From Coriobacteriia bacterium (GTDB lineage Bacteria; Actinomycetota; Coriobacteriia; Coriobacteriales; UBA8131): DNA of 64,000 nucleotides. Position numbers and translations under genes: made by a program. Below, piece after piece: positions 3,358 to 56,154 of the stretch; positions within the stretch are counted from its first letter, which is position 1, and every line of letters starts with the position of its first letter. The stretch is taken from NCBI GenBank assembly GCA_009783085.1, contig WRHU01000005.1, forward strand, positions 1-64,000. The letters run 5' to 3'. The notes under the pieces are model-generated. The model was given only the letters and a program-made list of their open reading frames with translations. It was not told the origin of the DNA and did not search any database.

Positions 3358-6300
3358 CTATCCTCTATAGGTCCGCTGCACGATCTGTGGAGCAGGAGCT
3401 TGCACAGCAACGTGTGGTTGTGGTGCTGGAGCAGGTGTGCCTTTCTTCTTCATCAGCAGTGCTGCCACCATAGGTGCCAACAGCTGAACGAGCACGATAA
3501 GGGACATCGGCAGTGAGTACTGGTCGATAATGCCCATCTTGGCACTGAAGTCTTGAGTTACCAACAAGACAACCAAACCTTCAATGAATGCAATAACGGC
3601 AATCAGCAGCACGGGAGCATTAACATACATGCTCTTTTGGTTGGCTGGCTTATCTTTCTCCTCGTCATCTTTACGACGATCAAAGAAGAACTTGGCCAAG
3701 AATGCAAGCGCCAACAAAGCGGACAGTATTACTACCAACACGTTGAACAGTGACCAGCTTGCCTTTTCTTCTGCAGGCGGCTCAATAGTTGGCGCAACAG
3801 TTTTATCCACTTCAACAAGCTCAGTGGGCCCAGGTACCTGTACCGCCGGCGGAGCTGCCACGTTTACATACGTTGCAGGTGGATTGACCACGATGCGCGG
3901 TTGTGGAGGTGGTGCATCTTTAGTCCAGTGTGCATAAACCGTGCGATTTGCATTTACTGGAGTTGAAGCGGTAAAGGCAGAGCCACCGGATTTCTTGGTG
4001 TACCAACCATTAAAGCTATACCCCTTGCGTACCGGCTCACTGGGCAAATACGCAATGGTTGTTGCAGGACGCTGTACGTACAAAACGCTCGGACCAGTCA
4101 AACGACCACCATTGGCATTAAAGGTTACCGTGTAGCGTGGCAACGGCTTTGCAACGGGGTCAGGCTGCGTTACGGTAGCAGCGATTTGCTTGGTCAACGT
4201 AGAATCAGCTGATACGGCTATTGTTGGATAGTACACGCCGCGAGCGTTGGTGTAGCCACCGAGGTTGCTTACACGCACGGCAACAGGAGTGCCGTCAATA
4301 CGCGTTGCATAAGCACCCGAACGCTCAATTATCTGAGCAGAACGGTTGCTTGTGTTTACCGCTGCGTGCGCAATGGTAAAGTTCTTTGCGTACAAAACAT
4401 AGTTGTTGTTGAACACAATGTTGCCATCGTCAACAATCAGAGCGGTCTGCGCCTGCGTAGTATTGCCGTCGCTATCGGTAACGCTCATAGTTACCTGATA
4501 GATACCTGGTTGGTTTCCGGGAATATTTCCAGAAACCTTAATCTTGTCAGTCAAATTGCCATCTTCTGCATCGGATGCGGTAGAGTTGCCACGTTTTTGC
4601 GTATCGGTAAGATAAGCAGCGTTGTTTGAAACCGGAACAACAACGGGGCGTTCAGGCGTAATCACTGGTGCAGAACCAGTAACTACTTGAACACTCAAAA
4701 CAGCCTGTGTAACATTTCCAACGTCTTTGACCGTTATCTGATATAAGCCAGGAGCTGCCTTAAGGCCGCCCGTATCGGCAATATAAACATCTTCTGCAAC
4801 AGCGCTGTTGGTCTTTATGTTGGTAATAATTGCGCCAGCTTGAAGTTTTTCAATCAAAGCATCATCAGAAACAATGCGATCGGCAGCCAGTGGGCGTATC
4901 GCTTCTAGGGCTTGAACTTCAGATAAGCGCATCGTAATGTTGTTGCCATAGACATAAACCCGATTGCCTGTTGCAGAATCAATATCGTCCTCAAGAACAT
5001 CAGCTGCCACAACTTGAGCATCGATGGTCTTCGAAATGGTGCCAGAAGGCACGTCTTTTACTGATACAACCACTGAGTGGGTGCCTGCTGTTTTGCCATA
5101 ACTACCAGGATTAATATCGATAATGCTTGGGGAAAGCTCCTCGCCGTTAGTAGCGTCAAACACGCGCGCATTAGACAGAGCTTTTATCTGAGCAATGCGC
5201 TCGTTGGCACTCGTCGCAACATCAGCAGCTCTAATAACAAAGCCTGTTGCCTCAAGAATACGACCCTCGCCAATTTCGTAGCGACCATCGTTAATGATAA
5301 TTGCGTGCTTTTCTCTGGTAGTGTTTCCGTCACTATCAGTTACCTCATAGGTAATCGGATAAATGCCTGGCACGTTGGTATCAATATCGTCTGGATCGGC
5401 ACTTGGGTCATTGGTGAGATAGTAGATAACCTTATCGGTAATATCACCATCTCCTGGACTCCAAGCAGAAACACCGTTCATGGGATTCCACGGATCGCCA
5501 AGAGCTATCTCGTTGGGGTTCGGAACGGTAAGAGTTGGAGGGGTACGGTTAGTGACGCGTGCCTCAACAAGAGCGCTATACTCATCAGATGTAAAGCTGT
5601 TGATGCCAAACTCAATGTCATATAAACCGCTGCGGTCAGTAAAGCCACCTTTGTCAACAACCTTAACGCTTGTATCAGGAGCAGTCTTGACAAGCTTGAT
5701 CACGCGCGCCTGTGCAGCAGCAATCAAGCCAGCATCTCCCGTGCCGCCCGTCTTAGTAATCTCGGCAGCATCAGAAACATCCAGAGCAAAGTTTGATGCA
5801 ATAAGAGCATACTTAGCGTTATAGGGGTCAGGCCCGAGGTCAACAACGTCGGCATCTACTATCTCGCCCGTTATGTCCTTAAATACCTCAGGATAACCAA
5901 CAGGACTTAAGCGGAAGGGATAAGAGCCAATCTCCTTTTCCGCAAAGCGAGGAGGTATCGTACCAACAACGGCGACCTCTAAAGCATTGCCCTCGTAGTC
6001 ATAAGCCTCCGCAAACGACAGCCTTAAGACATCGTCAGCAGCTCCGCCAAAGGTAGCATCTTTTGAAGAAACGACAAAGTCCTTGGCGCCAATAATAATC
6101 TGAGAATCCTCAAAGTCGTCAAAGCGTCCATCGTTGATAATAACGGCACGAGTAACGGATACCTGCTTGGGTGTGCCGTCGGTGTTTTTAATGATGGGGT
6201 CTTCGACCATATAGGTTACCTGCGTTACGCCAACCACTGATTTATCAATGGCAGGCACAGCGCCCATGCTGTCAGTTATTACTACATCAGTGGTAGCAAG

Positions 6301-9300: not shown

Positions 9301-12300
9301 ATAGATAGCATAACTTGCAGACTTATCGCCTGAGTTGATGTAATCAGCATCGATAACCGTAGCCTTAATGGTCACAGAAGTTGGGAAGTCGTTTGTTTTC
9401 CAGGTAAGAGGATAGGTGCCCGGCTCGGCATTTGCTACATAACCTGAAGGAGCGCCGGTCCAACTAAAGGGAATCTCTTCGCCTTCAAAGTTGTAAGCCT
9501 CAGCATACGAGCTGCTCTTTGCTTGACCTTCGCTGCCATCAACGGAGCCAGTGCCTTTGCTCTTGATAACAAAATCGCGTGCGCCAATGATGACCTCGTT
9601 GTCAGGGTCAATAACATAACGACCATCGTCAACAATAACAGCACGTGAGGCGGTAGTAGTGTTGCCGTCCGTATCAGTAATTGAATAGGTAGCATTCCAC
9701 ACACCAACATTTGCTTGATCAAGCGGAGTTAGTGTTGTGTTGCCCGCATAGGTAACGCCAGCAATAGCAACCGTGGTTTTAGCCCAAGAGTCAATGCCTA
9801 TCATGTCATCTTCGACATCGGTAACCACCATCTTTGCCTTAAGGTCGGCGACGGAAAGCGGCTTGGAGAGATCGGTCTTTTGAAGTACCAACGGTGCCTC
9901 GTCAAACATAATAACGGGGTCGTTACTCTCAACGCTAAAGGTTACCGTTGCAAAGGCGCCAGGAACGCCCTTGGCAATGAAGGTTACCTCATATTGTCCG
10001 TTAGGTACAACAGGGTGTCCTGCTGAGCCAATCTGGTTGTCGAGAACAGCAACCTCCCAGTCGCTCAAGCCTTCTTCGCCACCAGCAGATTTCCAGGCCT
10101 CTGCGCCAGCACGGTCAATCAAGTTTGCCACAGCAATAGCACTCGTGCCCGTAAAGAGATTGGCTTCTGCAAGCTTGAACATGGCGTTGCTAGCACCTAC
10201 AAAGTAGCGGGCATCTTCCTCGTCAACAACCGTATCGCCAATAACGTCTTTGTCTATAACTTTACCAATGACGTTATGCGTTACAGCATCGTCGCCAACA
10301 TAGCCAGGCTCAGGATTAACACCAATCTTGATGGTATATTCGCCCTCTTCGGCTTTGTAGCCACCGTTGCTCGTAATCTTCAAAACGTTGTTGGCGGGAG
10401 CAGGAAGCTCCTCTGATGGGTCGCTGCTCACGTAGCGCCATGCCTTTGCGTTGGCAAGACCTAAGATAACGCTGTCGGAGGTGCCGTTTGTCATAACGTT
10501 TGCAACTGTTTCAACAAAGTCATAGCCGCATACAAAGTAATCACCAATAAAACTACCCGTACCAACATAGACCTTAACCGTCTTGGTTACGGTATTAAAG
10601 TCACTGTCCGTTACTTGATAAGAGATGTCTTGATAGACGTTCTTTTTGCTCAAATCAACGGGGCTTGCAGCAGTTATGGGTTTGACCTCGGTAAAGGTGC
10701 TGCCCGTAAGCGTTCCCACCTTAACCTGTGCCGTAAGGTCATGGTCCTCAGGATCATTTGCACTTACGCCCTGCATACCATTTTGAGAAATCCAATTCTC
10801 TTTGGCAATCCAACGAGGATCACTTGGCATGGTAGAGGTTTCGCCACCCCAAACATAGCGTACTTCAGGAGCGGTAATTTCTGGTCTTCCACCATTGCTT
10901 ACAAGCAGAATAATGGTGGTAGTTGCATCAGTATCCTCTGCACAACGTACCGTAAGCGTAAATTGCTGACCTTCAGAAAGTACGCCCGGTGTGGTGCTAA
11001 AGCCACCGTCAGAAACGAGCTCTCTCGTCATGGCGGGAGCTTCTACAAAGCTTGAGGAGGTGCGGTCGTGAATGGTAACCCCACCCTTTGCCAAAAGCGT
11101 AGCGTCAATCGTAGCCTTAGGCTGCGATTTGAGAGCGTTTGCCTCGGTTTCATTGAGACGGAAGTTAGCCCCAATTATGGAGTAATGAGAGCCATTGTCG
11201 CCATTTTGGTCGCCAACGGCAGGAGTGCCCGTGCCGTCATTTATAACCTTGGCAGTAATAGTTTTCGAAACCGCAGGATAACCTGCTACCTGAACGGTTA
11301 CTGAATAATCATAGGGCAGGCTCGCATACCCACCAGGAAGCGCAATCTCGGCAGCACGAGGAGTACCCGTAGTTGCCCAAGCACGTGCCTCTGATTTTTC
11401 AAGCAGCTGAGCCATAGCGCCCGTTGGGTTGACATCAGATGCCCTAATAACAAAGGAGAGTGCTTCTAAGATGAAGTTATCGTCGTACTCATAGCGTCCA
11501 TCATTTACGATAATTGCGCGCGAGTCGCTCACCTTAATGCGGTTTGCATCGGTGTAGCTGTAAGTCACCTGATAGATGCCAGGCTGCGTAGCTGGAATAG
11601 CTGTTACAACGGTGCCCGGAGTGCCCTCGGTAACGTCAAGGATTTCATAAACAACCATAGTGGTCACATTGCCTATAACATCAGACAAATTGGGGTCACT
11701 TGCCACAACGCCCTCTTTAATCTTTGCATCCGTAAGGTTGCCGCCACTTTGCTCAGTGCTTGCAACGGGCATAGTTACGTTCAAAGGTTTGGGTGTAGCA
11801 GAGATGCTCGGCATCTTGTCGGTGCCTACCATAATAGTAAGTTGAATGGTAGTTTTATCTTCAATGTCGGTAACGTCAAAGCGGTACACACCAAAGAGTT
11901 CTGTTGGGTCTGCAGGAATAGCTCCCGAGAAGGCAGCAACGTAGTCGTCCAAGTCAACAATTTTGACATCGATTTTTGAGGTGGTGCCATCAACAGCCGC
12001 CTTGGTTGCGTATGCTTGCAGGGCTTTGATGATTTGAGCATCAACAGGACTGGTAGTTGCCGTTGTAACCGCCTCATCAACGGTTTGGACAATATTTTTG
12101 CCGTAGACATAGGTTACTGAACCTGTTGCAGGAGGCATGTCAGGGCCAATAACGTCGGCATCAACAACCTCACCCGTAATATTTCGAGTGATGGTTCCTG
12201 ATGGGTCATCAAAGGCGGTAAGGCTAATGTTGTAGGTTCCTACACTCGGCCCATAACCACCAGGACCTACCACAACCGTACTGGAAGTACCAATAGGAGC

Positions 12301-15300
12301 ACCAGTTTCGCCATCTATAAGGCGAACCTGACCCTTGCTGAGAATCTCAGCGTTAATCATATTGGTATCAGTTGTAACGTCTTGCAGTTTTGTTACAAAG
12401 GAGCGGGCATAGAGAATGCGGCCGTTTCCTACGGTGTAGGTGCCGTCGTTAACAACAACCATGCGCTCGGCAGTATCCGTTTCGCCCACTGAGTCGGTAA
12501 CCGTAAACTTAAGGTGATACAGGCCGGGCTTGGTTAAATCAACGCCCGTGGTTGGGTCAAGGTAGTCAACCGTAATAGAAGACGGATCCATGAGCATCTT
12601 AGGCCCGGTGCCTTCTTCTTCATGCGTTGCGACTACTTGGTATAAGTCCTCGTAAGCTCCCGGAAGAATAGCACCTGCGTTAGGTGCTGCACCAGCGCCA
12701 ATCCACACCTCAAGAGGCGTAGTAGCAGTAATGTGCGGAAGCGGACGATCAAGAACTCGAGCGGTAGGAGCTACTTGCGTTGGTGGTGTGGTGACCACAA
12801 CGCTGTTGCTGGCATCGGTGCGACGCGCTCCAAACAGCAAGCTATAATCGCCTTTTTCTGCCTTAAAGCCACCGTTGTTAATAACATACGGAACGGCCTC
12901 AATAACATCATCTACGAGCTTGTAGACTTGAACATTGGCCTTTGCAAGTAGTGAGGCGTTTAGATCTGGCGTAAGCATATCTTCAGCTTCTGCAACCCAA
13001 ACCTCAAAGTTATTGGCCGTCATAGCATATTGGTCGTTGTCGCCACCAACAAAGATAACATCGGCATCAACAACGGTACCCGTTATTTTCTTTACCGTAG
13101 GATAGCCAACAACCGTCCAAGGGAACTCATAGTCGCCCACAGCACAACCGACCGTATACGTTGAGGGGAAGGGGTCTATAGTAAGCAAGTTAGATGCAAT
13201 AGCATGACCCTCAGTATCCCAAGCGTTGGCACGTGAATAGCTGCGAACCTGATCTGCGCTTCCTTGAACAGCAGAACGCTGAATAATAAAGTTCTTGGCA
13301 CCAATAATAATTCCATTGTCGGTGTCAATTTCAAAACGTCCATCATCAACAATAACTGCGCGAGTTGCTGTTGCCGTTAGAGGAACAGAATTGGTGGCAG
13401 TGTACGTAACTGAATACACGCCAACAACACCCTTGCTAATGGTTTTGCCAGAAGTGTTATCAACAACAAACGTTGTTTTTGGCGTCATAAGAATGTCACC
13501 GTCTTGGGCGTCAAGAACGCTCATTTTTGCCTTAAGCTCAGCCTCAGTAAGATTTTGTGTGCTGCCGGGCTCAAACGGAATAATAAGCGGGGCTTCGTCA
13601 AAAGTAATGACGGGTGCCACACCACCAAATGAGAACTCAACCGTTGCCGTAATAGTAGGTGAATCTTTGACCGCAAAGGTTACCTCAAACACATCGCCAG
13701 AGCTAATATTTGATGTGCTGGTAGGAATAGTCGAGGAAAGAACAATAACACCGGCATCATTAAGAGATACAAGGTCAAAGCCCGTCTTGTTCAAAGGAGT
13801 AGAAACATCGGTGAGTTTCCACGCCTCCGCCTTGGCAGCGTTAATCATTCTCAGCTTAGTTGCGTCATCGTTAATATTAGTCCACAGACTTGCTTCGGTA
13901 ATCTTGATGTCGTAAACATGATTTGCACCAATTGCATAGCGAATATTGGTGTCAGGGTCTGTGCCGTCACCAATAACGTCTTTTTGTATGACCGTTGCCA
14001 CTACATTCATCTTAAGAGCAGTATCCGGAGCATCAACCTTAATCTCAATAGGATAATCGCCCTTAGGACAATTCTTGGCATACGCGCCGTAGTTTCCCAC
14101 AGCAGCAGTAGCAGGTTTTTTACCCCCTGCTTCAGCTTCATCTATCTCCCAAGCCTGTGCTTTGGTATCCATGAGGAGGGCAGCAGATGAATTGTCTGCG
14201 TCCTCAGAGGCAATAACAAAACTTGATGCTTGCAAAATATACTTACCGTCAGAGACGATAGTTCCGTCCGTAACAATAACCGTACGCACAGCCGTAGTAA
14301 CGTTGCCTTGTGCGTTAGTTACCGAATACGTAAGAGGATACGTACCAACCTTGGTGTCATCATACGTGCCCGTGTAGCTAATGCTCGTCGCAGGTATTTC
14401 TGCGCCACCGGCAGTTTCAAATGCAGAAACGCCGTCCATAGGATCAAAATCGCCGGGCAACAGATGGTTGGCAGGAGCGGTACCGTCGCCAATCCAAATC
14501 ATAATAGGATTGCTCACGTTAAGAACCGGTGGATCGCCAATAATGATGCTCGCTATAACGGTGACGTAATACTCAGGGCTTGACCCTCCGCTTTTTACGT
14601 GGAAGGTTACCTCGTAGTCGCCTGGAGTACCATCCAGAGGAATCATAACGCTCGTAACCTCAACATTTGCCGCAGAGAAGGGATCGACAAGTTTAAGACG
14701 ACCCTGCGCAGCCGCACGCTCAATGAGCTCTTTGTCGCGGTCAGTTGTGCTTTTTGCCATCATGGTCTTTGCGTTGTTTGAAGACATCGTAAAGTTGTTC
14801 GCACCAATAAAGGGAGTTGCCTTCTCAAACGGAAGCACCGTAACCGTACCGGTATTGTTGATGCTCGGGTCTGCGTCAACCGCATATTTGACCAGGTACT
14901 CTTTGCCGTCAGGGTTGAGCACTCCAAACTCGGGCAAGCTAAAGTAGCCAGCTGGCTCCCACGGTCCATCAACATTAACTACACTTACTGCCTCGCTCAT
15001 AGTCACGCTTGGATTGCGCTTTTCGCCATAGGCCGCAATAACGTTTTTAAGCTCAGCGTACTGATTAAGCGTATCTTGCCCAAGCTCAGCTATTTCTGCA
15101 GCCTGCATGGTGCCAATAAAGGCATCGGTGTGATACAGCAAAATATCAGGCAGAGCAACCGTCAAAAACGGTGCAGGTGCCATGGTGGTGTCATGAATGG
15201 CCGTAGCTATAAGGGGGTTTTTATTGTTGTTTTCATCCTCAAGGATAAAGTAAATCTTGTCGCCTGCATTAAGGCTCGCAACAACACTTTCGGGAATATC

Positions 15301-18300
15301 ATATTCCCAAGTGCCGTCTGGATTAAGCGTGCCCTCTACCACCGAGCCACCATCCATAATAAGGTTATTGGCAGTGTTTACCGCCGCATAAATCTTAACG
15401 GCTGGCTCAGGGTTATGGGGCTCAGCAGGAGCTTGATTCAAGCCTGCAAGCCAGGTACCTTCTACATGCGAGGTAATACCAAGCCACAGTTTATTGCCGT
15501 TGTCTGAGTTAATTTGAGCCGGCGTTGGCGGCAAAACGTCTTGAATGGTAATGGGGCCTGGCATATCCTCAGGCTTTGCCATATGAACCGTCGCTGGATT
15601 TGGGGCGTTGGGGAACTCTACACCACGCCACAGTGATGCCATGGTAAAGATATCGCCTGAACGCAAAAGGTCGCCGTCGGTGTAGCGCACCACGCCGTCA
15701 AGCAACATGCCTGTTAATTCAACTTCGTAAATACCAGTTTCTTCATTGAACGAAAGAACCTGACCGCTTGTTGAAACCTCCGTTGCACCTGTTAGGGCAC
15801 GTAAAATCTCATAGCGTCCATGAACCTCATCGGTCCAAACAGCACGTCCTTCCTTATTAAGGCCCTCGGGTACCACACCAAGAGTGCGCAGATACTTATC
15901 TGCATTGGTGGGCTGGAGAACCTCTTTGATAACTGGCGTCGCATTGTTGCCCTGAACACGCTTATACGGCAACATACCTTGGTTGCCAAAGTTGTCTACT
16001 GCGGTGTTGAGCAGCGTAGTATTGCCACTATAAAAAGAACCACCCGAACCAAAACTTGCCGTGTTGGCAATTTGGACGGTTTGCAAAGTCCACTGCATAT
16101 AGGGGTCTGTCCATGAATTGGCATTGCCCCAAAGAGGGTTGGTTGCAGGGTTTAGTGAGGAGTTGGTGCCATTTGCCGTTCCGCCTACACGGCTCGACCC
16201 GTTACCCCAAACTGCCATGTCAGACTGATTGGATTCAAAGCGCACCTGCGTTGCTGTAGAAGTGCGAAAAACGCGCGCAGGCTGGGTAGCGGTACCCGTG
16301 CCAAAGTTGGCAAAGTCATAGTACAGTGGGTTGGTAAAGGTAAATTCAAAGCCTTGGGTACCGTTTACAATGGCCCCACCATCAACAACACCGTGCATAA
16401 TAGCAATGGCGCCTGGTCCAATAGTAACTGAACCATTGTTGTTATTAATAGTTGAACCCGCTGCATTGCTGCTGCCAGAAATGGCAGGACCAGTTTTTGA
16501 GTAGAGCTCTACTGAGGATCCATAATCCTTAACATCAAAGCTCCAATTTGGTCCTACAAAGTTGATTGCAGGGTTTCTCAAGTTGAATGCTGTTGCGTTT
16601 GTTTGGGCATCTTGTGGGCGACCGCCATTGTTTTCGACTTTAACAATACCACCGCTTTCAATGGTAAAGGAGTTATTGGCACCCATAAAAGATATGCCAG
16701 CAGCTTTTCGGTTGCCCGAGGTAAGCGTGGTGGCTACTCTGTTAACCTCCATTACGGCACCGTTTGAAACACGAAAATCACAGTTTGTTTGCGTAGTAGC
16801 ACTGCCTCCTTCGCCAGCATTTACCCACACAACACCGTGCATCTGGTTCTCGCCACCTCTATCCATGGTTGCCGATTCAGCATAAAGCTTTGAGCCTTCG
16901 CCATCAACGATGAAGTAAGCATCACCTGGATTTTGACCTCGGATGTGCTGCATAATGGCAGCTCCCGCTGCATCACCTTGCCGGTTTGCCGCAGTAGTAA
17001 GCCAGTTGTATGAATTGAGATGACCACCGTTGAGAACAGAAATACCGCCCTTGCCACCGCACATGGCAATACCACCCGCCTCATCAGTCCAACCGCTAAT
17101 ACGACTGTAGGTATTAACTACGGTGCCAGGGTCAGTAACAACAAGATCAATGGTAAGTGTGCGTATGTTGGCAGCAGTATTGCCAGCTGTGGCTCCACTG
17201 CGGTCATAGCTCAGACCCATGAATATTGAAAATGCCCAATAGTCGGGACGATACGACCAAATCTCTGCCTTGGTGCCACCCTTGAACTCTATCTTGCTGT
17301 CGGTGTTGTATACCACCGATGAAACCAAAGCGCCACCGCAGGTATTGGTGCGCAAGTCCATGTCGGCACCATCATAGATTTGATAGCGTGCATTGATGAT
17401 TGGAGTATCTTGATAGTTGGCAGTAGCACTACTGGTTGCAAAGGTAGCTCTTGAAGCACCAGAGCTATTGGCAACCTCATTGACCATACTGCCCCACCAC
17501 TCAATTTTACCGGTGCCTTTTACCGTACCGTTTGCGTTATTAACCAGACCACCGCGTTGGGTGTTATCACTTACAACATCTTCGAGGTTTACCGTCCATC
17601 GGTCGGTGTGCGTAGTAGGACGCGCTGCAGAAGGAGCATTTAGTCCACTGGCGTGACCCCAAGCTGCGTCACCATTGGAGGCGCCTCCAGTACCAGAGGT
17701 AATGGTTCCCACGCCAATAAGCGTGTTGTGGTTAACTCCATTGGAACGCGCAGTTTGACGGTTAATCTTGACGTTTTTAAGGGTGAACTCCAACTTTGAG
17801 CCCCCCGTCATAGGAGAGTTTATCAAAGGCATTGAAATGTTTCGGTTTTGGGTGCCCACGTCAAGGGTAAAGCCATTGCCGTCTACCACCAGATTGCGCG
17901 ACAACACCGCAAGATCTGTTGTGCTGCTGCCACGCGCAATGTTGTTCTTGAGGCGGATGTAGCTCACGTTGCTGGCATCAGCCCAGGCGGTAGCAAAACT
18001 TGCCCAGTCATCGACCTCAACACCGCCGGGAATATCCGTGATGGGCGTTATTGCCAAAGGCACTATCACTTCATCAGGGTCATCTGCCTCGAAATCGCTT
18101 ACGGTGGCCTCCTCTGATTCGTCGACTGCCTCAAAGGTTTCCTCAGGCTCTAGGGCGCTCTCGAAATCTTCTCCTTCGCCCTCAGCGTTTTCTGGCTCGG
18201 TTGCAGATGCTTCTTCACCTCCGCCCGCGCCGTCCGTGGTTTGCCCTTTTTCTTGTGTGTCACTGTCTGTTGTCTCTATCAAGTCTTCACTGACAGGCTC

Positions 18301-18480
18301 AACAATATGATCGGCAACGGCCCCTGCTGGCACCATAAGCATGATTGCCATGTTGAGAGCGAGCAGAACGGCGAGAGCCTTCTTAAGAAGCCCACCGTCT
18401 ATGCCCTGTTGTCGCAAGCGCCCAGTAGCGCTCTTGTGCGTTTTTGTGCTTTCTTTAGCACCCCTTTTTCTCGCGCTCAT
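3358..18480 (-). CDS. Giant (5,040-residue) adhesin-like surface protein: beta-helix head, 12-module Ig-like stalk, InlB repeat, membrane tail
   Basis: The chosen start is the ATG at 18480, preceded by AAAGGA about 9 bases upstream; a GTG six codons earlier is less likely. Residues 1-56 form a long signal peptide ending AGAVA. An acidic linker follows. Residues about 150-900 are rich in Gly/Asn and beta strands, beginning with a DDWASFATAW motif typical of pectin-lyase-like adhesin heads. Residues about 1200-4750 contain 12 modules of about 298 residues. Each has a segment close to NDGRYxxGxxRILxAxSFV, a second YAIxAxNF segment and an Ig-like unit ending VTDSDGNT. Residues about 4781-4853 are one InlB B-repeat (FNANGG, GYSFNGWY). 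Three hydrophobic helices (about 4907-5003) end the protein; there is no LPXTG motif. The likely role is a cell-anchored stalked adhesin. Substrate unknown. Confidence 0.85.
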   Translation of the reverse strand: MSARKRGAKESTKTHKSATGRLRQQGIDGGLLKKALAVLLALNMAIMLMVPAGAVADHIVEPVSEDLIETTDSDTQEKGQTTDGAGGGEEASATEPENAEGEGEDFESALEPEETFEAVDESEEATVSDFEADDPDEVIVPLAITPITDIPGGVEVDDWASFATAWADASNVSYIRLKNNIARGSSTTDLAVLSRNLVVDGNGFTLDVGTQNRNISMPLINSPMTGGSKLEFTLKNVKINRQTARSNGVNHNTLIGVGTITSGTGGASNGDAAWGHASGLNAPSAARPTTHTDRWTVNLEDVVSDNTQRGGLVNNANGTVKGTGKIEWWGSMVNEVANSSGASRATFATSSATANYQDTPIINARYQIYDGADMDLRTNTCGGALVSSVVYNTDSKIEFKGGTKAEIWSYRPDYWAFSIFMGLSYDRSGATAGNTAANIRTLTIDLVVTDPGTVVNTYSRISGWTDEAGGIAMCGGKGGISVLNGGHLNSYNWLTTAANRQGDAAGAAIMQHIRGQNPGDAYFIVDGEGSKLYAESATMDRGGENQMHGVVWVNAGEGGSATTQTNCDFRVSNGAVMEVNRVATTLTSGNRKAAGISFMGANNSFTIESGGIVKVENNGGRPQDAQTNATAFNLRNPAINFVGPNWSFDVKDYGSSVELYSKTGPAISGSSNAAGSTINNNNGSVTIGPGAIAIMHGVVDGGAIVNGTQGFEFTFTNPLYYDFANFGTGTATQPARVFRTSTATQVRFESNQSDMAVWGNGSSRVGGTANGTNSSLNPATNPLWGNANSWTDPYMQWTLQTVQIANTASFGSGGSFYSGNTTLLNTAVDNFGNQGMLPYKRVQGNNATPVIKEVLQPTNADKYLRTLGVVPEGLNKEGRAVWTDEVHGRYEILRALTGATEVSTSGQVLSFNEETGIYEVELTGMLLDGVVRYTDGDLLRSGDIFTMASLWRGVEFPNAPNPATVHMAKPEDMPGPITIQDVLPPTPAQINSDNGNKLWLGITSHVEGTWLAGLNQAPAEPHNPEPAVKIYAAVNTANNLIMDGGSVVEGTLNPDGTWEYDIPESVVASLNAGDKIYFILEDENNNKNPLIATAIHDTTMAPAPFLTVALPDILLYHTDAFIGTMQAAEIAELGQDTLNQYAELKNVIAAYGEKRNPSVTMSEAVSVVNVDGPWEPAGYFSLPEFGVLNPDGKEYLVKYAVDADPSINNTGTVTVLPFEKATPFIGANNFTMSSNNAKTMMAKSTTDRDKELIERAAAQGRLKLVDPFSAANVEVTSVMIPLDGTPGDYEVTFHVKSGGSSPEYYVTVIASIIIGDPPVLNVSNPIMIWIGDGTAPANHLLPGDFDPMDGVSAFETAGGAEIPATSISYTGTYDDTKVGTYPLTYSVTNAQGNVTTAVRTVIVTDGTIVSDGKYILQASSFVIASEDADNSSAALLMDTKAQAWEIDEAEAGGKKPATAAVGNYGAYAKNCPKGDYPIEIKVDAPDTALKMNVVATVIQKDVIGDGTDPDTNIRYAIGANHVYDIKITEASLWTNINDDATKLRMINAAKAEAWKLTDVSTPLNKTGFDLVSLNDAGVIVLSSTIPTSTSNISSGDVFEVTFAVKDSPTITATVEFSFGGVAPVITFDEAPLIIPFEPGSTQNLTEAELKAKMSVLDAQDGDILMTPKTTFVVDNTSGKTISKGVVGVYSVTYTATNSVPLTATATRAVIVDDGRFEIDTDNGIIIGAKNFIIQRSAVQGSADQVRSYSRANAWDTEGHAIASNLLTIDPFPSTYTVGCAVGDYEFPWTVVGYPTVKKITGTVVDADVIFVGGDNDQYAMTANNFEVWVAEAEDMLTPDLNASLLAKANVQVYKLVDDVIEAVPYVINNGGFKAEKGDYSLLFGARRTDASNSVVVTTPPTQVAPTARVLDRPLPHITATTPLEVWIGAGAAPNAGAILPGAYEDLYQVVATHEEEGTGPKMLMDPSSITVDYLDPTTGVDLTKPGLYHLKFTVTDSVGETDTAERMVVVNDGTYTVGNGRILYARSFVTKLQDVTTDTNMINAEILSKGQVRLIDGETGAPIGTSSTVVVGPGGYGPSVGTYNISLTAFDDPSGTITRNITGEVVDADVIGPDMPPATGSVTYVYGKNIVQTVDEAVTTATTSPVDAQIIKALQAYATKAAVDGTTSKIDVKIVDLDDYVAAFSGAIPADPTELFGVYRFDVTDIEDKTTIQLTIMVGTDKMPSISATPKPLNVTMPVASTEQSGGNLTDAKIKEGVVASDPNLSDVIGNVTTMVVYEILDVTEGTPGTVVTAIPATQPGIYQVTYSYTDANRIKVSDSRAIIVNDGRYEYDDNFILEALSFVIRASDVNPTGAMAQLLEKSEARAWATTGTPRAAEIALPGGYASLPYDYSVTVQVAGYPAVSKTITAKVINDGTGTPAVGDQNGDNGSHYSIIGANFRLNETEANALKSQPKATIDATLLAKGGVTIHDRTSSSFVEAPAMTRELVSDGGFSTTPGVLSEGQQFTLTVRCAEDTDATTTIILLVSNGGRPEITAPEVRYVWGGETSTMPSDPRWIAKENWISQNGMQGVSANDPEDHDLTAQVKVGTLTGSTFTEVKPITAASPVDLSKKNVYQDISYQVTDSDFNTVTKTVKVYVGTGSFIGDYFVCGYDFVETVANVMTNGTSDSVILGLANAKAWRYVSSDPSEELPAPANNVLKITSNGGYKAEEGEYTIKIGVNPEPGYVGDDAVTHNVIGKVIDKDVIGDTVVDEEDARYFVGASNAMFKLAEANLFTGTSAIAVANLIDRAGAEAWKSAGGEEGLSDWEVAVLDNQIGSAGHPVVPNGQYEVTFIAKGVPGAFATVTFSVESNDPVIMFDEAPLVLQKTDLSKPLSVADLKAKMVVTDVEDDMIGIDSWAKTTVAIAGVTYAGNTTLTPLDQANVGVWNATYSITDTDGNTTTASRAVIVDDGRYVIDPDNEVIIGARDFVIKSKGTGSVDGSEGQAKSSSYAEAYNFEGEEIPFSWTGAPSGYVANAEPGTYPLTWKTNDFPTSVTIKATVIDADYINSGDKSASYAIYGSDFTVNLEQAAAILSGAPNSYITAAKVSVIPLVSTASAKNAVLGDNAGFRVEQGEYKPITFRIEGVTPTQDIGVTGTVSQGEPPVLTVPSPIEVWIGAPDHPRRSPSSILPADYTSGGGEMYMVSATDLEDDRDGKPLNITATAAGSAVDLAKVGQYKINYSVTDSDNNTVTAERIVVVNDGRYVVGNGRILEANSFITLLKDVTTNPGMINAEILDKSGATLYDGRTGTVIAQGDITVTNTDGYGPLAGKYNITLRGVDTPSGYLTMDIIGEVIDGDVIVTSGEYTVFGKNISLRPSEVPTTDADLLMLLSAGARQTLPTGEVNDIAAIVTDWGNLSPALGLYTVTIADEGKNVFAALEVNVTTGGLMPSITADPKPLNVSWEPASSALVSREVIMTGVKATHPVDGDLTVSVVINPDASGAEVLPAIPLNEFSVTQITYRVTDADGNVAQVRRALIVNDGSASFDENYILRAQSFVIEAKDVQAFIDDGGSTNTLILEQSGAQAWATDGSPATAIVSDSASLAAIKKDFRPILGIQEYAALKRTITAKVLDSTPPYPEVAGNGDTYAIAARDFRINIKDASALQAMSGAAYSNELIKRSEAESYLRSDTNLAPSGTCALADDGGFKTATFAQPDSPDYPTIVPVKLWVTEDNTAFVWVNAIVSNGFSPWLNVPEFKQVDLNGSFTEDDYLAGVTYGDAEDDVKDLVLTHDSPVNTKVEGAYTVTYTVTDTEGNSTSQTGLVLVGPWEFEGDYAAKAWDFATTVVDVEAATSIDDLVLALSHAEALHLVRDTATQRVIDVENWTPVVKDLAGFMAKKDVYTPIKIGVAAEAKPVANVTGRVLDKELISNTPDDDGNVNDTNTTDSNDTNRYIVAANNVILTWAQAGELAGKMDNVTQARLVAYADAEAFKIAGTGGMTSHNVAVKSNGIMQANGTYQVTFIPENVGGVEVTVDFFVDWGVDPVIAVDGPLRFDQAPASVMLTRNELLLGIMVIDEKNMLATTDVVITDSMGAVPAIDKSVVGVTQVTYMVEDPIIKNTDGTPKQVSVTRAVIINDGRFDDFEDSQIIIGAKDFVVSSKDATFGGAADDVLRLSFAEAYDYEGNALEVAVVGTIPPRFAEKEIGSYPFRLSPVGYPEVFKDITGEIVDADVVDLGPDPYNAKYALIASNFALDVSDAAEITKTGGTGDAGLIAAAQARVIKLVKTAPDTSVKVVDKGGFTDRSGLYDIEFGINSFTSDEYSALVEARVTNRTPPTLTVPNPNEIALGDPWNPMNGVSAWSPGDGDITDKVIYYLTNDPSADPDDIDTNVPGIYPITYEVTDSDGNTTREKHAIIINDGRYEIGEGRILEATGFVIRAADVATSANERIAQIKALSNARVFDATNGEELSPSIIDINPGSYGKTAGTHSVVVSVKDVPSGTISKTIDAQVVAADVLEDDIDSATGNRVYVYGNNITMRLSEVQALEAIRPLAADRIVSDDALIEKLQAGAIITNIKTNSAVAEDVYIADTGGLKAAPGLYQITVKDVGNVTQAVLSVQVVTGSAPVITPERPVVVPVSNNAAYLTDTQKRGNSTASDAEDGNLTDKIKVSGNIPGNQPGIYQVTMSVTDSDGNTTQAQTALIVDDGNIVFNNNYVLYAKNFTIAHAAVNTSNRSAQIIERSGAYATRIDGTPVAVRVSNLGGYTNARGVYYPTIAVSADSTLTKQIAATVTQPDPVAKPLPRYTVTFNANGGRLTGPSVLYVQRPATTIAYLPSEPVRKGYSFNGWYTKKSGGSAFTASTPVNANRTVYAHWTKDAPPPQPRIVVNPPATYVNVAAPPAVQVPGPTELVEVDKTVAPTIEPPAEEKASWSLFNVLVVILSALLALAFLAKFFFDRRKDDEEKDKPANQKSMYVNAPVLLIAVIAFIEGLVVLLVTQDFSAKMGIIDQYSLPMSLIVLVQLLAPMVAALLMKKKGTPAPAPQPHVAVQAPAPQIVQRTYRG
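4410..14290 (-). repeat. Hierarchical coding repeat: four-module block present about three times
   Basis: Module boundaries, marked by the DGRY-like motif, fall near 14270, 13350, 12445, 11505, 10550, 9635, 8758, 7920, 7060, 6148, 5290 and 4435, a spacing of roughly 0.9 kb. The modules fall into four types that recur in order every four: xGDY type, IIIGAxxFV type, VGNGRIL type and DxNYIL type. The blocks start near 14270, 10550 and 7060, about 3.7 and 3.5 kb apart. The last module lacks its Ig-like half and runs into the InlB repeat. Confidence 0.75.
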
Positions 18481-18981
18481 GATTCCTTGTCCTTTCACTC
18501 AATCCCACTCTTCCTTGTCAATCCTTTTGCTTTTCTTTTCTTTGTGAATACCCGTTTGTACTGTTTCTCTCTCTTGCTTTTGCTCGTTATACAAGCCAAC
18601 TCAGCACAAGCAGACAGAGGAAGCATGCCGAACAGGCTAGCTTGCCGCATAGCCTTTGCTTCCCCCGTCTTTCATAAGATCATCACGAAACATATTCTTT
18701 TACGAACATTCACTCGTGATATCTATTTTTAGGAAAAGCCCTGAATTGCACAAGCGCATTGTGGGTTGTTTTTGAAAAAAAGTATCGCTTTTTATCATTC
18801 ATTTTGTGGTAATACATATTGCAGATATGGCCCTTTTCCTTCCCCTCAAAAGGAAAACAAACCTCTGCACTACTTAAATCATTTGCGATACTTTGTGTGC
18901 TTGCCCCCTGCAGGCACTCGTTGATACGCTGTTGCAATGCTCGTTATAATCTGTCGCATTGAACCAACTCCTCCCCGTAAT
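18481..18981. other. 500-bp intergenic region upstream of the giant gene
   Basis: No credible gene; a 75-codon open frame (18710-18937, minus) has a TTG start and no ribosome site or family resemblance. The region must hold the promoter of the giant gene, but no clear -35/-10 pair stands out. A 7-bp inverted repeat (ATCACGA at 18682-18688, TCGTGAT at 18714-18720) is the only notable symmetry. Confidence 0.5.
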
Positions 18982-36032: not shown

Positions 36033-36063
36033 TTGACAAATGAGAGAGAGGGGGGGGTATACT
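36033..36063 (+). promoter_or_regulatory. Promoter of the protease gene with GA- and G8-tract spacer
   Basis: TTGACA (36033-36038) and TATACT (36058-36063) are 19 bases apart. The spacer contains GAGAGAGA followed by G8 (36050-36057). Loss of one or two G would give the preferred 17-18 base spacing. The layout resembles phase-variable promoters with homopolymer spacers, such as neisserial porA. Confidence 0.75.
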
Positions 36064-36163: not shown

Positions 36164-39100
36164 ATGAAAACGAAACAATCTGTTGGTAGTAAAATTATGG
36201 GCTTTTTTCTTGCCCTAGCATTGGTTGTTACCATACAGCCAGCGAACCTTGCGTGGGCTGCTGATGAGCCAGAGCTTACAGAAGGCTTTGAGAACAGTGT
36301 GATAATCTCAGAAGAAGATCTCGTCGAAAACGAAAATGCAGCCGGCGAAGCAACGGACGAATCAACAGGCGAATATGCAGCAGACGAAAGCTACGAAAAC
36401 GAAGATGCTGCTAGCGCGGAAGCCGAGGGCGACGAGGCTGCCGCAAGCCCCAAAGAGGACACCAGCACAACCCAAGGCGATGTCAAGAGCTATATTGTTG
36501 TTGCAAAGGATGCCGCCAAAACAAAGGCTGCAGTTCGAAAGATTGAAGAGCTGTCAGACAAAAGAACATCAAAAAATACAAAAGCACACAAAAAAGCGCT
36601 TCGCAAGAACACAGCTTTGGAGGAAAACAACGTATTGCTTGCCGATTTATCTCCAGAAGAGGCCAACATACTAAAAGCACAAGATGGTATTTTGCTCGTA
36701 GAAAAAGACTTTGAGATGAGCGCGAGCAGCATTGAGATCGCAGACGATGCCTACGCAGAAGAAAACGATGATTTTTCTGAGGAAATGCAATATTACCTAG
36801 AAAGAGAATCCGTTGACCCTGACGACTACGAGTGGTCTATGAAGCAAATTGGGGCAAATAACATTGATGAGGAAACCGTGGCAGGCAAGCGAATCATTAA
36901 AGTGGCAGTTTTAGATTCTGGTGTAGATATGATTCGTGGCATTGAGCTTGCTGGTTCAATAAATCTGGTTTCAGATGAAGACTGGATGTCTCCAATGTTT
37001 CTTGACGCCAGCGGGCATGGAACCAGCGTGGCATCCCTAATAGGAGGAAACCCTCAAAATGATGTTCAGGGTGTTAGCCCAGGCACAGAGCTGTATTCGG
37101 TAAAAGTATTGGATGCAGAAAACAAAGCTCCTGTGAGTCGAGTTATTGAGGGCATTTATTGGTGCATTGAAAATGATATGGATATCATCAACATGTCATT
37201 TGGAACACAAAATTATTCAAAAGCTTTGGAGCTGGCAATTAGGGCTGCTCATGACAAAAATATGCTTGTAGTTGCTGCAGCAGGCAATGCGGCTGGTGAG
37301 CCTGAGTATCCGGCTAGGTTCCCAGAAGTTTTGGGAGTAGCCGCTACGGGAACTGATGCACAAATCACTGATTTTTCTAATACGGGCGAAGAGGTAGAAA
37401 TAGCAGCCCCAGGCGAGAAAATCAAAGTTTTGAGCTTCTTTGGCTTCCAAACCGTAACTCATGGAACAAGCATAGCGGCCCCAATGGTTACCGGTGCTGC
37501 GGCGCTTCTTTGGCAAAAAGACCCTTCGAAATCTAATGAGTTTATTCATCAGCTCTTGGTACAGAGCACCAAAGACATCAAGAATAACAACGACTGTGGT
37601 TTGTTGGACGTAGCCTATGCTCTGGATATATATGATGAGTTTGAAAAGACGTTTGTGGCAGGAGCTGCTGCATTGAACAATATGCAAGAAAACACAGCTT
37701 CTGCAACAATTTTCCAAGAAATTGACGACGACGAAAACTATGTTGAGGGGCTTTGGGGACAAAGCGCTCACATTGATGCGACAAAGTATGCCAGCGATAA
37801 TGAAGGGGTTAAACTTACTACCAATCAGGTTACTGCTTTGAAGTTGGGTGCAATCTGGCCTGATTATGCACGGGATAAATATGCACAGGATAAGTCTTTT
37901 GGTAATGGAAATTTTGGCATGGTCCACTGGCATGGTGGTGGTGGAGTTACAAACTATATAAAGGCCTGCAAGCTCATTACGCAAATAGCGAATAAGGCAG
38001 GAAATACTACTGGGATAGCTGTGCCAAGCAATTTTGATGCGGACACGGGAAAAAGAGCGAGCGATATTATCAAAATTTTTGATTCTGGAAAAAAAATCGA
38101 CGGTTTGACCTGGGCAGAAGTTTTTGAAAAGAAAACAGGCAAACCGTTTGACTTGTCGGCAAACACTACCATCACAACCAATATCAAAAAGTGCTTCATC
38201 TATGGCCTTGCCATTCATACTGCCACCGATACCTTTGCCCATAGAGCTTTCGTTTCCTACCCCACCAAGCTCGACAAGCCTGACTCGACGAGCCTTATAC
38301 CCGAAAGATTTGGTGGAGCAAAATACGCGGCAGAAAGAGTGGCCATATGCGCGCACAACAGCGTTAAGGACAACGGTAAGGCTGTTGATGTTGCTTCGGC
38401 TGCCTTTTATGGTGCCTATAAGCCTGTTCTTCCCCCAAAATCCCCAAGTTACAACTATAAAAAACCCAAATACAAGCTGCACAACCTCCTCTTATATGCA
38501 AAGGCGAACAGCCCAAATACTGCTTACACCGAGTTCTCATATGTGTCTGTTGATACTCTAAAGGTCTGCTACAACGCAAACGGGGGAACCATAGCGTCCA
38601 ATCATGGTACCTATAAGTTAAAAAACAACGTGGTTTACGTAAAAGGTACAAGCAGCGATTCCAAATATTGGCAAGTTTGGACCTATAACCAAGCAAAAAC
38701 AAACGGCCTAACTAATGCCTCTACTTTTGGACTAACGAGAGCTGGCTATACTTTTGTAGGCTGGGGACGAAAGTCAACCGACACTCCTCCAACAGACGAC
38801 AAAAACGTATTTGATCAAAATAAGAAAGACTTAAAGCCAGCTACCCTAAGTCCAGTAGATGCGGGGAAATATACAATAACGCTTTATGCAATATGGAAGC
38901 AAAACTCATCAGGCACAACAACGCCAGCCCCAGCAAAAACCTATACCGTAAAATACAACAAAAATGGCGGCTCTGGAACTATGGCTAACTCAAATCATAC
39001 CTACGGCGTTGCGAAAGCCCTGTCTGAAAATGACTTTACACGAACGGGACATACGTTTACGGGATGGGCGTTAACGCCAACGGGAGCTGTCAAGTACACT

Positions 39101-39514
39101 AACAAGAAGTCGGTGCTGAACCTTACGTCCACAAACGGAGCAACAGTAAATCTGTATGCGGTGTGGCGTGCTAATACGCTCACAGTTAACTACCACGCAA
39201 ACGGAGGAAAGATTTCTTCAAATACTTATAAGCTAACGAACAGCCTCGTTTATAAAAAGTCTGGAAACGTCAAGTATGGACAAATTTGGACATATAACAA
39301 AAAGGGCGGACTTAAGAAGGCTAGCGCATTTGGCCTAAAAAGAAGTGGCTACAAATTTGTTGGTTGGGGCATCAAGAAGAATGCGAAAGCAAAAGTTGAC
39401 AATAAGAATGTATTTAGCCAAAGCAATACTAACCTACAGCCGGCAACTATTAATCCCAAGCTAAAAAATGACGACTGTTCCATAACGCTGTACGCAATAT
39501 GGAAGAAGAAATAA
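36164..39514 (+). CDS. Secreted subtilisin-like serine protease with His-rich domain and three InlB repeats
   Basis: The protein has 1,116 residues: a signal peptide (1-32, ending AWA), an acidic propeptide (33-230), and an S8 domain with Asp251 (VAVLDSGVD), His285 (SGHGTSVASL), Asn374 (AAAGN) and Ser436 (HGTSIAAP). Residues about 525-750 form a separate domain with HWH (588-590) and LAIHTATDTFAHR (His685, Asp689, His693). This pattern resembles zinc-dependent phospholipase C-like helical proteins. Residues about 798-1116 hold three InlB/Listeria-Bacteroides repeats (YNANGG, NKNGG, YHANGG), likely wall-binding. AAGGAG lies 8 bases before the ATG. Likely a surface protease; the middle domain's activity is inference. 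Confidence 0.88.
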   Translation: MKTKQSVGSKIMGFFLALALVVTIQPANLAWAADEPELTEGFENSVIISEEDLVENENAAGEATDESTGEYAADESYENEDAASAEAEGDEAAASPKEDTSTTQGDVKSYIVVAKDAAKTKAAVRKIEELSDKRTSKNTKAHKKALRKNTALEENNVLLADLSPEEANILKAQDGILLVEKDFEMSASSIEIADDAYAEENDDFSEEMQYYLERESVDPDDYEWSMKQIGANNIDEETVAGKRIIKVAVLDSGVDMIRGIELAGSINLVSDEDWMSPMFLDASGHGTSVASLIGGNPQNDVQGVSPGTELYSVKVLDAENKAPVSRVIEGIYWCIENDMDIINMSFGTQNYSKALELAIRAAHDKNMLVVAAAGNAAGEPEYPARFPEVLGVAATGTDAQITDFSNTGEEVEIAAPGEKIKVLSFFGFQTVTHGTSIAAPMVTGAAALLWQKDPSKSNEFIHQLLVQSTKDIKNNNDCGLLDVAYALDIYDEFEKTFVAGAAALNNMQENTASATIFQEIDDDENYVEGLWGQSAHIDATKYASDNEGVKLTTNQVTALKLGAIWPDYARDKYAQDKSFGNGNFGMVHWHGGGGVTNYIKACKLITQIANKAGNTTGIAVPSNFDADTGKRASDIIKIFDSGKKIDGLTWAEVFEKKTGKPFDLSANTTITTNIKKCFIYGLAIHTATDTFAHRAFVSYPTKLDKPDSTSLIPERFGGAKYAAERVAICAHNSVKDNGKAVDVASAAFYGAYKPVLPPKSPSYNYKKPKYKLHNLLLYAKANSPNTAYTEFSYVSVDTLKVCYNANGGTIASNHGTYKLKNNVVYVKGTSSDSKYWQVWTYNQAKTNGLTNASTFGLTRAGYTFVGWGRKSTDTPPTDDKNVFDQNKKDLKPATLSPVDAGKYTITLYAIWKQNSSGTTTPAPAKTYTVKYNKNGGSGTMANSNHTYGVAKALSENDFTRTGHTFTGWALTPTGAVKYTNKKSVLNLTSTNGATVNLYAVWRANTLTVNYHANGGKISSNTYKLTNSLVYKKSGNVKYGQIWTYNKKGGLKKASAFGLKRSGYKFVGWGIKKNAKAKVDNKNVFSQSNTNLQPATINPKLKNDDCSITLYAIWKKK

Positions 39515-53390: not shown

Positions 53391-54614
53391 CTACTCGTCA
53401 ATGCTAAAAAAAGTAGCATAGGTGGAGCCAAAGAACTTTTCTGGGGTACCAACAATAACAACGTCGCTTATGTTATTTTCTTCGATATATAAATCAAGAT
53501 CAATACTTTTACTAAATTCGACGGGGAAAATTATATGTACTTCATTGTAGTGTGGAACAAACATTGGCTCAATGTTCTTGATAAATGAATCTGCACATAT
53601 CAAAAGGTTCCCGCGCTTTTCATCATACACATTTTGAACATAAGTTAATATTGAACTTAAGTTTGGACCGAAATAACCTAATGTAGCAATCTTTTGGTCG
53701 TTAAAAATGCTGTCTCGTTTTGGAGTACGATCAAATGGCTCTCCGTCAAGATAAGTTGAAAATGCAGGATAATCAAAAACGAGATCCTGAATATAATCGT
53801 CGTCGTTATAAAAGTAGAGCCCTACCCGCGAGTCGGTGCCCCTAAGCCCATATTCTTCAAATGAAAGAGCCTCAACAGGAACACAAGGTTCAAAGCCAAG
53901 TGCCCTTATTATTTCTACGTAACCAGCATAGCCTCCGTGTATGTTCCAATGAAAGTCGGTTTGATAGTAGTGTTCTTGTCGCTCAGCAACCGTGTTGTAC
54001 CGGGGATACATTGTAAAAATCTTATCATGGGAAAACTGCGAAAAGAAGTTTTTGTCGAGAATTTCCATAGTGGTGGGATCGCTAACATAATCTACAGCTG
54101 GGTTTACAGAACAGCTATTTGATGTGTTTGGCACATAAATAACGGTTCTCACATCATGATTTTGGCTTAGCTGAGTGATGCTGTTAGCCAGATTTATCAT
54201 AATCTCTTTTTGTTTGTCTGTTGCTTTGCCTGGAGTAAAAAATAGTTGCTTGTGTTCTGGGTCATAGAGCCTAATCGAATTCCAAAAGGTTGGATAGACC
54301 TTAAATCCAAAAGGCACATTTGCCGCAGCTATCATATTTCGCTGCCACGCCGCATTAGCAAGCAGGGCGTTGTCCTTAGAAGGAAAGCTGTCTGCCATAA
54401 AGGTTTCAAACTCCTCTTGAAACGTACCCTTGTTAAAAGAACCGCGAGAGAGTTTTGGAAGCTCTTGGTACGCACGACCTTCAAGCGACGATCTGGTAAC
54501 CCCACTCATCGAGTCTGGCAAAATATGCACTCTGTCGGCAGCCTTGTAAATAAAAACAGAACAAAACAGTGTTAAACAAACTGCAATAAAAATTATGTTC
54601 CGTGCTTTTAGCAT
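53391..54614 (-). CDS. DHHW/AlgJ-like polymer O-acylation protein
   Basis: This 407-residue protein has one N-terminal membrane helix (about 7-26) and an extracytoplasmic domain. TDFHWNIHGGYAGY carries the Asp/His/Trp pattern of DHHW and AlgJ/AlgX-type SGNH proteins, which act with an MBOAT to acylate exported polysaccharide. CADSFIKNIEPMF is a plausible second block. It lies 13 bp after the MBOAT gene, the usual partnership. The acyl group (probably acetyl) is inferred. Confidence 0.75.
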   Translation of the reverse strand: MLKARNIIFIAVCLTLFCSVFIYKAADRVHILPDSMSGVTRSSLEGRAYQELPKLSRGSFNKGTFQEEFETFMADSFPSKDNALLANAAWQRNMIAAANVPFGFKVYPTFWNSIRLYDPEHKQLFFTPGKATDKQKEIMINLANSITQLSQNHDVRTVIYVPNTSNSCSVNPAVDYVSDPTTMEILDKNFFSQFSHDKIFTMYPRYNTVAERQEHYYQTDFHWNIHGGYAGYVEIIRALGFEPCVPVEALSFEEYGLRGTDSRVGLYFYNDDDYIQDLVFDYPAFSTYLDGEPFDRTPKRDSIFNDQKIATLGYFGPNLSSILTYVQNVYDEKRGNLLICADSFIKNIEPMFVPHYNEVHIIFPVEFSKSIDLDLYIEENNISDVVIVGTPEKFFGSTYATFFSIDE

Positions 54615-54627
54615 CTACCTGTTCTCC

Positions 54628-56154
54628 TTAAAATTGGAAATAGATAAAGGGGTTGAAAGAACCAGAAACTATCGCAAAAATCGAGAAGACGAGCAACACC
54701 ACTAGGCCTATGTCAACCAAAGTGTTTATCGTAAAAACAAGCCCACGCCTTCCTGTTGCTAAGACAATACTTGGGTCAAGTCCAGCAAGGGGCGGATGTT
54801 CGTTTCCTTTAAGCGGTGCAGCCTCGAACTTTACTGGGTGCCCCCCCCCCTGCTTGCTGATGTAGTTTTCAATATGTTTACGCAACCAAGGAATCACCGG
54901 AGTAGAGGCAAGCGCGCAGATAATAAAGAGTGGCCAATATTCCCATGCGTGAAGTTCCCAAAAAGTCATGGTTCCAGTAAAGCCATGCAAACCAAACATG
55001 CTGGCAAGAAGTCCGCCTACATGCTCAAGGCTGGTCGCCCTAAAGAATACCCATCCTATAATGAACAAAACAATAACGTAGAAATGCTGGATAATGCGTG
55101 GCAGACGTTCAAGCAACTTGCCCCAAACCAATTTTTCAAAAATGAGAATAATGCCGTAATACAAACCCCAGAGAACAAAGTTCCAAGCTGCCCCATGCCA
55201 AAGACCAGTCAAGCCCCAAACAATCATGATGTTAAGCAACCAACGTGATTTTGCAACGCGGTTACCGCCTAAGGGAATGTAGACGTAATCTCTAAAGAAA
55301 GACGAAAGCGAAATATGCCAGCGTCGCCAAAACTCAGTTATGCTCTTTGCGATATACGGATAGTTGAAATTCCTGAGATACTTAAACCCAAACATTTTAC
55401 CCAGACCGATAGCCATGTCGGAGTAACCTGAGAAATCAAAGAAAATCTGAAAACTATAGGCAACAATGCCAGCCCATGCGCCAATAAAGCCAATATCACT
55501 TGGACTTGCATTCATCATGGATTCAGCCAAAATGGCAACATTATTTGCGAGCAGCACTTTTTTTGCAAGCCCTATGATGAACAAACGCAAACCACTGGTA
55601 AAGTCATCGAGGTTCTCTACACGATTATTGACCTGCTCCTCAATGGTCTCATAGCGCACAATAGGTCCTGCAATAAGTTGGGGAAATAAGGCAATATACA
55701 TACCAAGGTTAAGCAGGTTTTTTTGGGGAGTAACTTTTTTTGTATAGACATCAATAATGTAGGACACCGCTTGCAAGGTAAAGAAAGAGATGCCAATGGG
55801 CAGCGGAAGCTCTAAATTAGGCACAAGAGTACTGCCTGCTAAGGCATTGATATTGTCAGCGAGAAAACCCTGGTATTTGAAAAAGCCAAGGATGCCAAGA
55901 TCAATAAGCAAGGCAACAACAAGAAAGGCTCTTCTTCTCGTTGCGGCTTCTGCTTTTCCAATAGCAATGCCTGCTGTCCAGTTGGCCAGAATAGAAACTA
56001 TCATTAAGAAAACGTAGACGGGCTCACCCCAGGCATAAAAAGCAAGCGAAAAGGCAAGTAGGACCACGTTCCTAATCTTTCGATTAGCAAAGTAGTAAAC
56101 ACCAATAACTATAGGTAAAAAAGCGAAAAGAAAAACCGAACTCGAAAATACCAT
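54628..56154 (-). CDS. MBOAT O-acyltransferase (AlgI-like), with G10 tract
   Basis: The membrane-bound O-acyltransferase has 508 residues and about 11-12 helices. Hallmarks are LFPQLIAGPIVRYE, FFDFSGYSDMAIGLGKMFG, EFWRRWHISLSSFFRDYVYIP and the catalytic His in LWHGAAWNFVLWG. It would pass acyl groups across the membrane to the DHHW partner encoded next. Codons 435-438 contain ten consecutive G on the coding strand (54841-54850). With nine G the frame meets TAA within four codons; with eleven it meets TAA about ten codons later. Either change removes the last helix (about 476-500). Confidence 0.88.
   Translation of the reverse strand: MVFSSSVFLFAFLPIVIGVYYFANRKIRNVVLLAFSLAFYAWGEPVYVFLMIVSILANWTAGIAIGKAEAATRRRAFLVVALLIDLGILGFFKYQGFLADNINALAGSTLVPNLELPLPIGISFFTLQAVSYIIDVYTKKVTPQKNLLNLGMYIALFPQLIAGPIVRYETIEEQVNNRVENLDDFTSGLRLFIIGLAKKVLLANNVAILAESMMNASPSDIGFIGAWAGIVAYSFQIFFDFSGYSDMAIGLGKMFGFKYLRNFNYPYIAKSITEFWRRWHISLSSFFRDYVYIPLGGNRVAKSRWLLNIMIVWGLTGLWHGAAWNFVLWGLYYGIILIFEKLVWGKLLERLPRIIQHFYVIVLFIIGWVFFRATSLEHVGGLLASMFGLHGFTGTMTFWELHAWEYWPLFIICALASTPVIPWLRKHIENYISKQGGGHPVKFEAAPLKGNEHPPLAGLDPSIVLATGRRGLVFTINTLVDIGLVVLLVFSIFAIVSGSFNPFIYFQF
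54841..54850 (-). repeat. G10 homopolymer in the MBOAT coding sequence
   Basis: The plus strand reads ten C, so ten G on the coding strand. It is the longest G/C homopolymer seen in the window and lies within an ORF, in an otherwise moderate-GC gene. Length change by slippage would switch the gene off by frameshift. Confidence 0.9.

Follow-up and report, generated by a model that had tools for sequence, protein, structure and literature searches.

Does an uninterrupted run of ten G in the coding sequence of a membrane O-acyltransferase act as a switch for the acylation of a surface polymer, or is it a stretch of glycine codons that arose by chance? The run lies at positions 54841–54850 (minus strand) of the 64-kb window, by which we mean the whole stretch of DNA analysed here, and direct reading of the letters gives C10 on the plus strand, that is G10 on the coding strand. 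It occupies codons 435–438 of the gene and encodes the Gly run in SKQ-GGG-H. This candidate contingency tract is the longest G/C run within the window, as stated in the first-pass annotation; the runners-up are a G8 at 36050 and a C7 at 52822.

The gene that carries the tract (54628–56154, minus strand) encodes a 508 amino acid MBOAT-family membrane O-acyltransferase of the PatA1/AlgI-like type with its own acyl-shuttle tail. The family had been named correctly in the first-pass annotation: the product matches Pfam PF03062 with an E value of 2.3e-29 and the DltB structure 6bug with an E value of 2.5e-28, and the top fold matches of its AlphaFold model (mean pLDDT 88.7) are DltB as well. Identity with DltB itself was rejected, as the TIGR04091 score is 153.7 bits against an equivalog cut-off of 375, and the shuttle motif is fused to the MBOAT instead of residing in a separate DltX. 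Alignment of 42 diverse homologues revealed that H280 and H320, the catalytic histidines of the MBOAT fold, are invariant, and so are F503, Y505, F506 and F508. The last four residues belong to the C-terminal hexapeptide FIYFQF (residues 503–508; 54631–54648, minus strand), which fits the acyl-shuttle motif FxYxxF (PMC12148441); a motif of this type terminates 130 of the 135 homologous ORFs. In MBOAT–SGNH pairs the MBOAT auto-acylates the tyrosine of FxYxxF, the group is then passed to the SGNH enzyme, and the motif is borne on two additional helices missing from DltB (PMC12148441). The MBOAT of the window presumably employs acyl-Tyr chemistry.

The next gene, 13 bp downstream (53391–54614, minus strand), encodes a PatB1-like SGNH/DHHW acyltransferase, and its ribosome-binding site (AAGGAG) overlaps the MBOAT stop codon. 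The partner matches Bacillus cereus PatB1 (5v8d; E = 2.4e-6), and the alignment takes in both the D-x-H-W and the D-S-F block; the match to Pfam DHHW (E = 1.7e-4) is below the cut-off. An MBOAT fold, a C-terminal FxYxxF and an adjacent SGNH/DHHW partner, the features of a PatA/PatB-type pair, are thus all found here. Because the MBOAT is followed by a PatB1-like gene, the pair looks, judging from its sequence, like an envelope-polymer O-acylation system, and it is situated inside a surface-polysaccharide cluster that runs along one strand (41274–62583, minus strand). Based on Pfam and NCBIfam, the cluster comprises genes for GDP-mannose synthesis and dehydratase, epimerases, an aminotransferase, a UDP-sugar dehydrogenase, glycosyltransferases, a heparinase II/III-like protein, a TagF/TarL-like protein and a polysaccharide pyruvyl transferase. 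These identities bear out the surface-polysaccharide context proposed earlier, and the MBOAT enzyme probably adds acyl groups to the cell-surface sugar coat.

The consequences of a change in tract length were read from a simulation in which the tract was replaced by 5 to 15 G. The frame is kept by G7, G10 and G13, with products of 507, 508 and 509 amino acids, respectively. Lengths of G6, G9, G12 and G15 give proteins of 439–442 amino acids (440 for G9), and G5, G8, G11 and G14 give proteins of 446–449 amino acids (448 for G11), such that the gain and the loss of a single G both shorten the predicted product, as in an SSR-type ON/OFF switch, in which a pure tract, long enough to be hypermutable, lies inside the ORF or promoter. 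The G9 frame (also G6 and G12) is closed by a TAA at 54831–54833, two residues beyond the tract, and the G11 frame (also G8 and G14) by a TAA at 54809–54811, nine residues beyond the Gly codons (both minus strand). The first-pass annotation had held that G10 keeps the frame, that G9 meets a TAA within four codons and G11 after about ten, and that both neighbours lose the last membrane helix; the simulated lengths and the position of that helix confirm all of this. It had been made without the lost acyl-shuttle tyrosine, the PatB1-like partner or the other tracts of the genome.

In the AlphaFold model the tract residues (435–438) lie where a helix (residues 420–435) ends and a low-confidence loop (residues 436–464; 54763–54849, minus strand) begins, which connects this helix to the last membrane helix (residues 465–497; 54664–54762, minus strand; hydropathy peak at 478–496). 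The loop is disordered in the model, with pLDDT below 50 at residues 446–462, and the alignment shows that it varies among relatives in both length and sequence, so an extra or missing glycine should be harmless. The G9 and G11 products keep the MBOAT catalytic core; the last helix and the C-terminal motif with Y505 are gone from both, and the short protein is predicted to be inactive.

Several related gut bacteria have similar runs in the same enzyme, and in one of them the enzyme is presently off. Of 54 MBOAT homologues within the order, 6 have G/C runs of at least nine, where within-gene codon shuffling would predict 0.81 (Poisson P = 2e-4, or 1.4e-3 when the window gene is left out). The carriers are the window gene (G10) and the homologues in genomes G057 (C11), G280 and G288 (G9 in each), and G320 and G265 (C9 in each). 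As the six runs occupy five or six different sites along the gene and their carriers are scattered over the tree, repeated origin of the tracts is favoured. Most MBOAT orthologues have no tract at all, and four of the six carriers have a run of only nine, short enough that codon chance could account for it. The C9 site of G265 reads CCCCtCCCC in its sister G267, a difference of one base, so the G265 run may stem from one substitution. The tract is not conserved in position, as none of the relatives has a run at this codon; the sole other genome of the genus that was examined has only a 49% homologue, too distant for a comparison of tracts. An exact search with the tract flanks in viral contigs gave no match.

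The C11 of G057 lies near codon 80 and splits the MBOAT gene, the N- and C-terminal parts being in different frames; C10 or C13 at this tract would rejoin the open frame. This MBOAT is therefore switched OFF, its frame broken exactly at the tract. G057 is the isolate bacterium D16-34, because a 9-kb stretch is identical to the genome behind L131; the isolate is unclassified at NCBI, and we take it to be placed in the Eggerthellaceae by GTDB, which makes the window genome a probable relative of the Eggerthellaceae/Coriobacteriales. In G263 a contig starts with GGGGGGGG (G8) at MBOAT codon 74, whereas the closely related G268 lacks a run at this place; the G263 assembly is thus interrupted at a G run within the MBOAT gene. 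The excess of runs and the broken frame in D16-34 lend support to slipped-strand phase variation, the reading put forward in the first-pass annotation.

Tracts are also present in the genes around the MBOAT of relatives. The PatB-like partner has a G9 at the same place in G264 and G268, and G268 has a further G9 in a gene named DltA-like from a reading of its sequence. Beside the MBOAT/PatB-like pair of G267, a G10 (L181, 6032–6041) splits an ORF, called acyltransferase-3-like (AT3) on the same kind of reading, into two frames. In D16-34, all four reverse-strand G9 words fall in this cluster, in the C11 of the MBOAT and in a C9 (L133, 6602–6610) that directly follows the start codon in the gene for a secreted repeat protein, two genes on from the MBOAT; this protein is out of frame as assembled, and C8 would open its frame. 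A G13 is located at the start of a 1414 amino acid surface protein in G394. We tentatively suggest, as a possibility rather than the favoured expectation, that modules for envelope-polymer acylation recurrently serve as contingency loci in this order, at which tracts have repeatedly arisen at different sites in the MBOAT, the PatB-like partner and neighbouring AT3- or DltA-like genes, and that the tract of the window is so placed that slippage would detach the acyl shuttle and leave the catalytic core.

The genome from which the window comes (G000; 1.58 Mb in 19 contigs) contains 12 G/C runs of at least ten. Three are internal, namely the G10 of the MBOAT and two at promoter-like sites, and nine lie no more than about 120 bp from a contig end. 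The runs at contig ends are 11–29 in length, are found on contigs C2, C3, C5, C6, C9, C18 and C19 (L011–L017) and have degraded, noisy sequence beyond them, as if assembly had come to a halt at G runs. The end runs of contigs C2 and C18 have similar downstream sequence, and that of C18 lies upstream of a LuxR-type regulator. Both promoter-like sites, recognised by eye, are on contig C1: a tract of eleven C between TTGACC and TACAAT with a 19-nt spacer (L009, 5329–5359) upstream of a secreted protein, and a tract of fourteen C between the same hexamers with a 13-nt spacer (L010, 5341–5365) upstream of a membrane protein. A sigma-70 scan of L009 with a spacer range of 16–18 did not list the first of these sites, since its 19-nt spacer exceeds that range.

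Slipped-strand phase variation of the G10 tract is, in our judgement of the sequence, quite probable. The simplest account is an ON/OFF slipped-strand switch of polymer O-acylation, for which we infer the slippage rate at G10, the polymer that is acylated and the phenotype. Slipped-strand mispairing at replication would lengthen or shorten the tract by one G far more often than ordinary mutation does, and with slippage this frequent the population would be a mixture of ON cells (G7, G10 or G13) and OFF cells (G9, G11 and others). ON cells would make the full MBOAT, in which Y505 would be acylated at the MBOAT core, most likely with acetyl derived from acetyl-CoA, and would carry the group to the PatB1-like partner for transfer to a surface glycopolymer. 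OFF cells would make a catalytic core lacking the last helix and the shuttle, and the polymer would stay unacylated because the acyl group could not be passed on. Given the tight coupling to the start codon of the partner, the OFF state may also reduce expression of the partner.

The position of the tract in a glycine-tolerant, disordered loop, with the shuttle motif beyond it, counts for a switch; its length counts against one, as ten G falls near the bottom of the range over which tracts switch. The same loop would accommodate a glycine stretch that arose by chance or through composition, perhaps with a slightly raised mutation rate and no selected switch. Such an origin would agree with the poor conservation of the loop and with the absence of the run from most orthologues, and when the dinucleotides of the window were shuffled 100 times, a G10 turned up somewhere in 5 of the shuffles, so that the bare run is only mildly unusual. 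Within the MBOAT gene, however, the G10 is unusual: a run of at least ten has a probability of 0.0012 when synonymous codons for the same protein are redrawn from cluster usage, and 0 of 400 shuffles of the gene's own codons reached such a run. The at least six-fold excess of runs across orthologues, the orthologue of D16-34 broken at its own tract, and the other long G/C runs that this genome has at promoter-like sites also argue against chance, which we consider unlikely, if still the most serious competitor.

That the tract was misread in the assembly, its real length being 9, 11 or mixed, is much less likely again. Homopolymers are error-prone, and in this assembly contigs break off at long G/C runs that are followed by degraded sequence, but among nearby lengths only G10 keeps the frame that ends in the invariant FIYFQF, and a mixed length would itself constitute a switch. 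It is also very improbable, marginally more so, that the tract acts at the RNA level, where transcriptional slippage or ribosomal frameshifting would set a fixed ratio of full to short enzyme in each cell. Both neighbouring frames do stop shortly past the tract, as in slippage cassettes; the orthologue of D16-34, however, is OFF already at the DNA level, and most sites of transcriptional slippage consist of A/T runs.

Slippage switches have been studied best in Gram-negative mucosal pathogens. Phase-variable O-acetylation of surface glycans and MBOAT–SGNH relays are each already known, and the G10 case represents a type of switch already described, here in an enzyme and a lineage that are new for it; the new points are the placement of the tract, which severs the acyl shuttle, and the recurrence of tracts across the order. 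Among the closest known systems are PatA/PatB and B. cereus PatA1/PatB1, in which the MBOAT likewise has a C-terminal FxYxxF tyrosine and an SGNH partner, PatB1 being the protein that the window partner matches; no homopolymer switch is described there, in contrast to the candidate G10 switch found here (PMC12148441). In Haemophilus influenzae, oafA confers phase-variable O-acetylation of LOS (PMC9558356, PMC11868660). Surface-glycan O-acetylation is there switched by slippage of a coding-sequence repeat, as is predicted here, but oafA, from a Gram-negative organism, contains tetranucleotide repeats and encodes an enzyme of the AT3 family, whereas the window has an MBOAT with a separate SGNH partner and a mononucleotide tract near the 3' end. 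NeuO of E. coli K1 and meningococcal OatWY also O-acetylate capsular polymers, with phase variation stated for K1; they are polysialate O-acetyltransferases of another family, without a membrane MBOAT/SGNH relay (PMC3046976). Within the Coriobacteriia, Eggerthella lenta reversibly varies its surface polysaccharide through capsule switching by megabase inversions, which has been linked to phage evasion; whole clusters are recombined in that case, whereas slippage would here alter a single modification (PMC13174815). A search of an open-access library yielded no paper that describes phase variation by homopolymers in Coriobacteriia or an MBOAT that is phase-variable.

If the interpretation as a slippage switch is correct, a homopolymer switch acting on an MBOAT–SGNH relay of Coriobacteriia-like gut bacteria would add a further phylum and a further class of enzyme to the range of slippage switches. 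Such a switch would also suggest a way for these bacteria to vary their phage receptors, or their recognition by the immune system, while leaving the rest of the polysaccharide in place. The idea can be tested directly in the isolate D16-34, as the frame of its copy is broken at the C11.

Elsewhere in the window, a further candidate tract was recognised by eye at 36033–36063 (plus strand), where TTGACA is followed by a 19-nt spacer ending in G8 (36050–36057) and then by TATACT, upstream of a gene for a subtilase-type surface protein (36164–39514; Pfam). Promoter-spacer contingency tracts are of a kind known from neisserial porA, and the sequence at 36033–36063 is likely to be one. An open reading frame of 5046 amino acids at 3358–18498 (minus strand) probably encodes a giant surface protein. 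In another genome, G050, which has about nine G/C tracts of at least 11, a C11 lies inside a LuxR-type regulator gene (L141), with the DNA-binding end in another frame.
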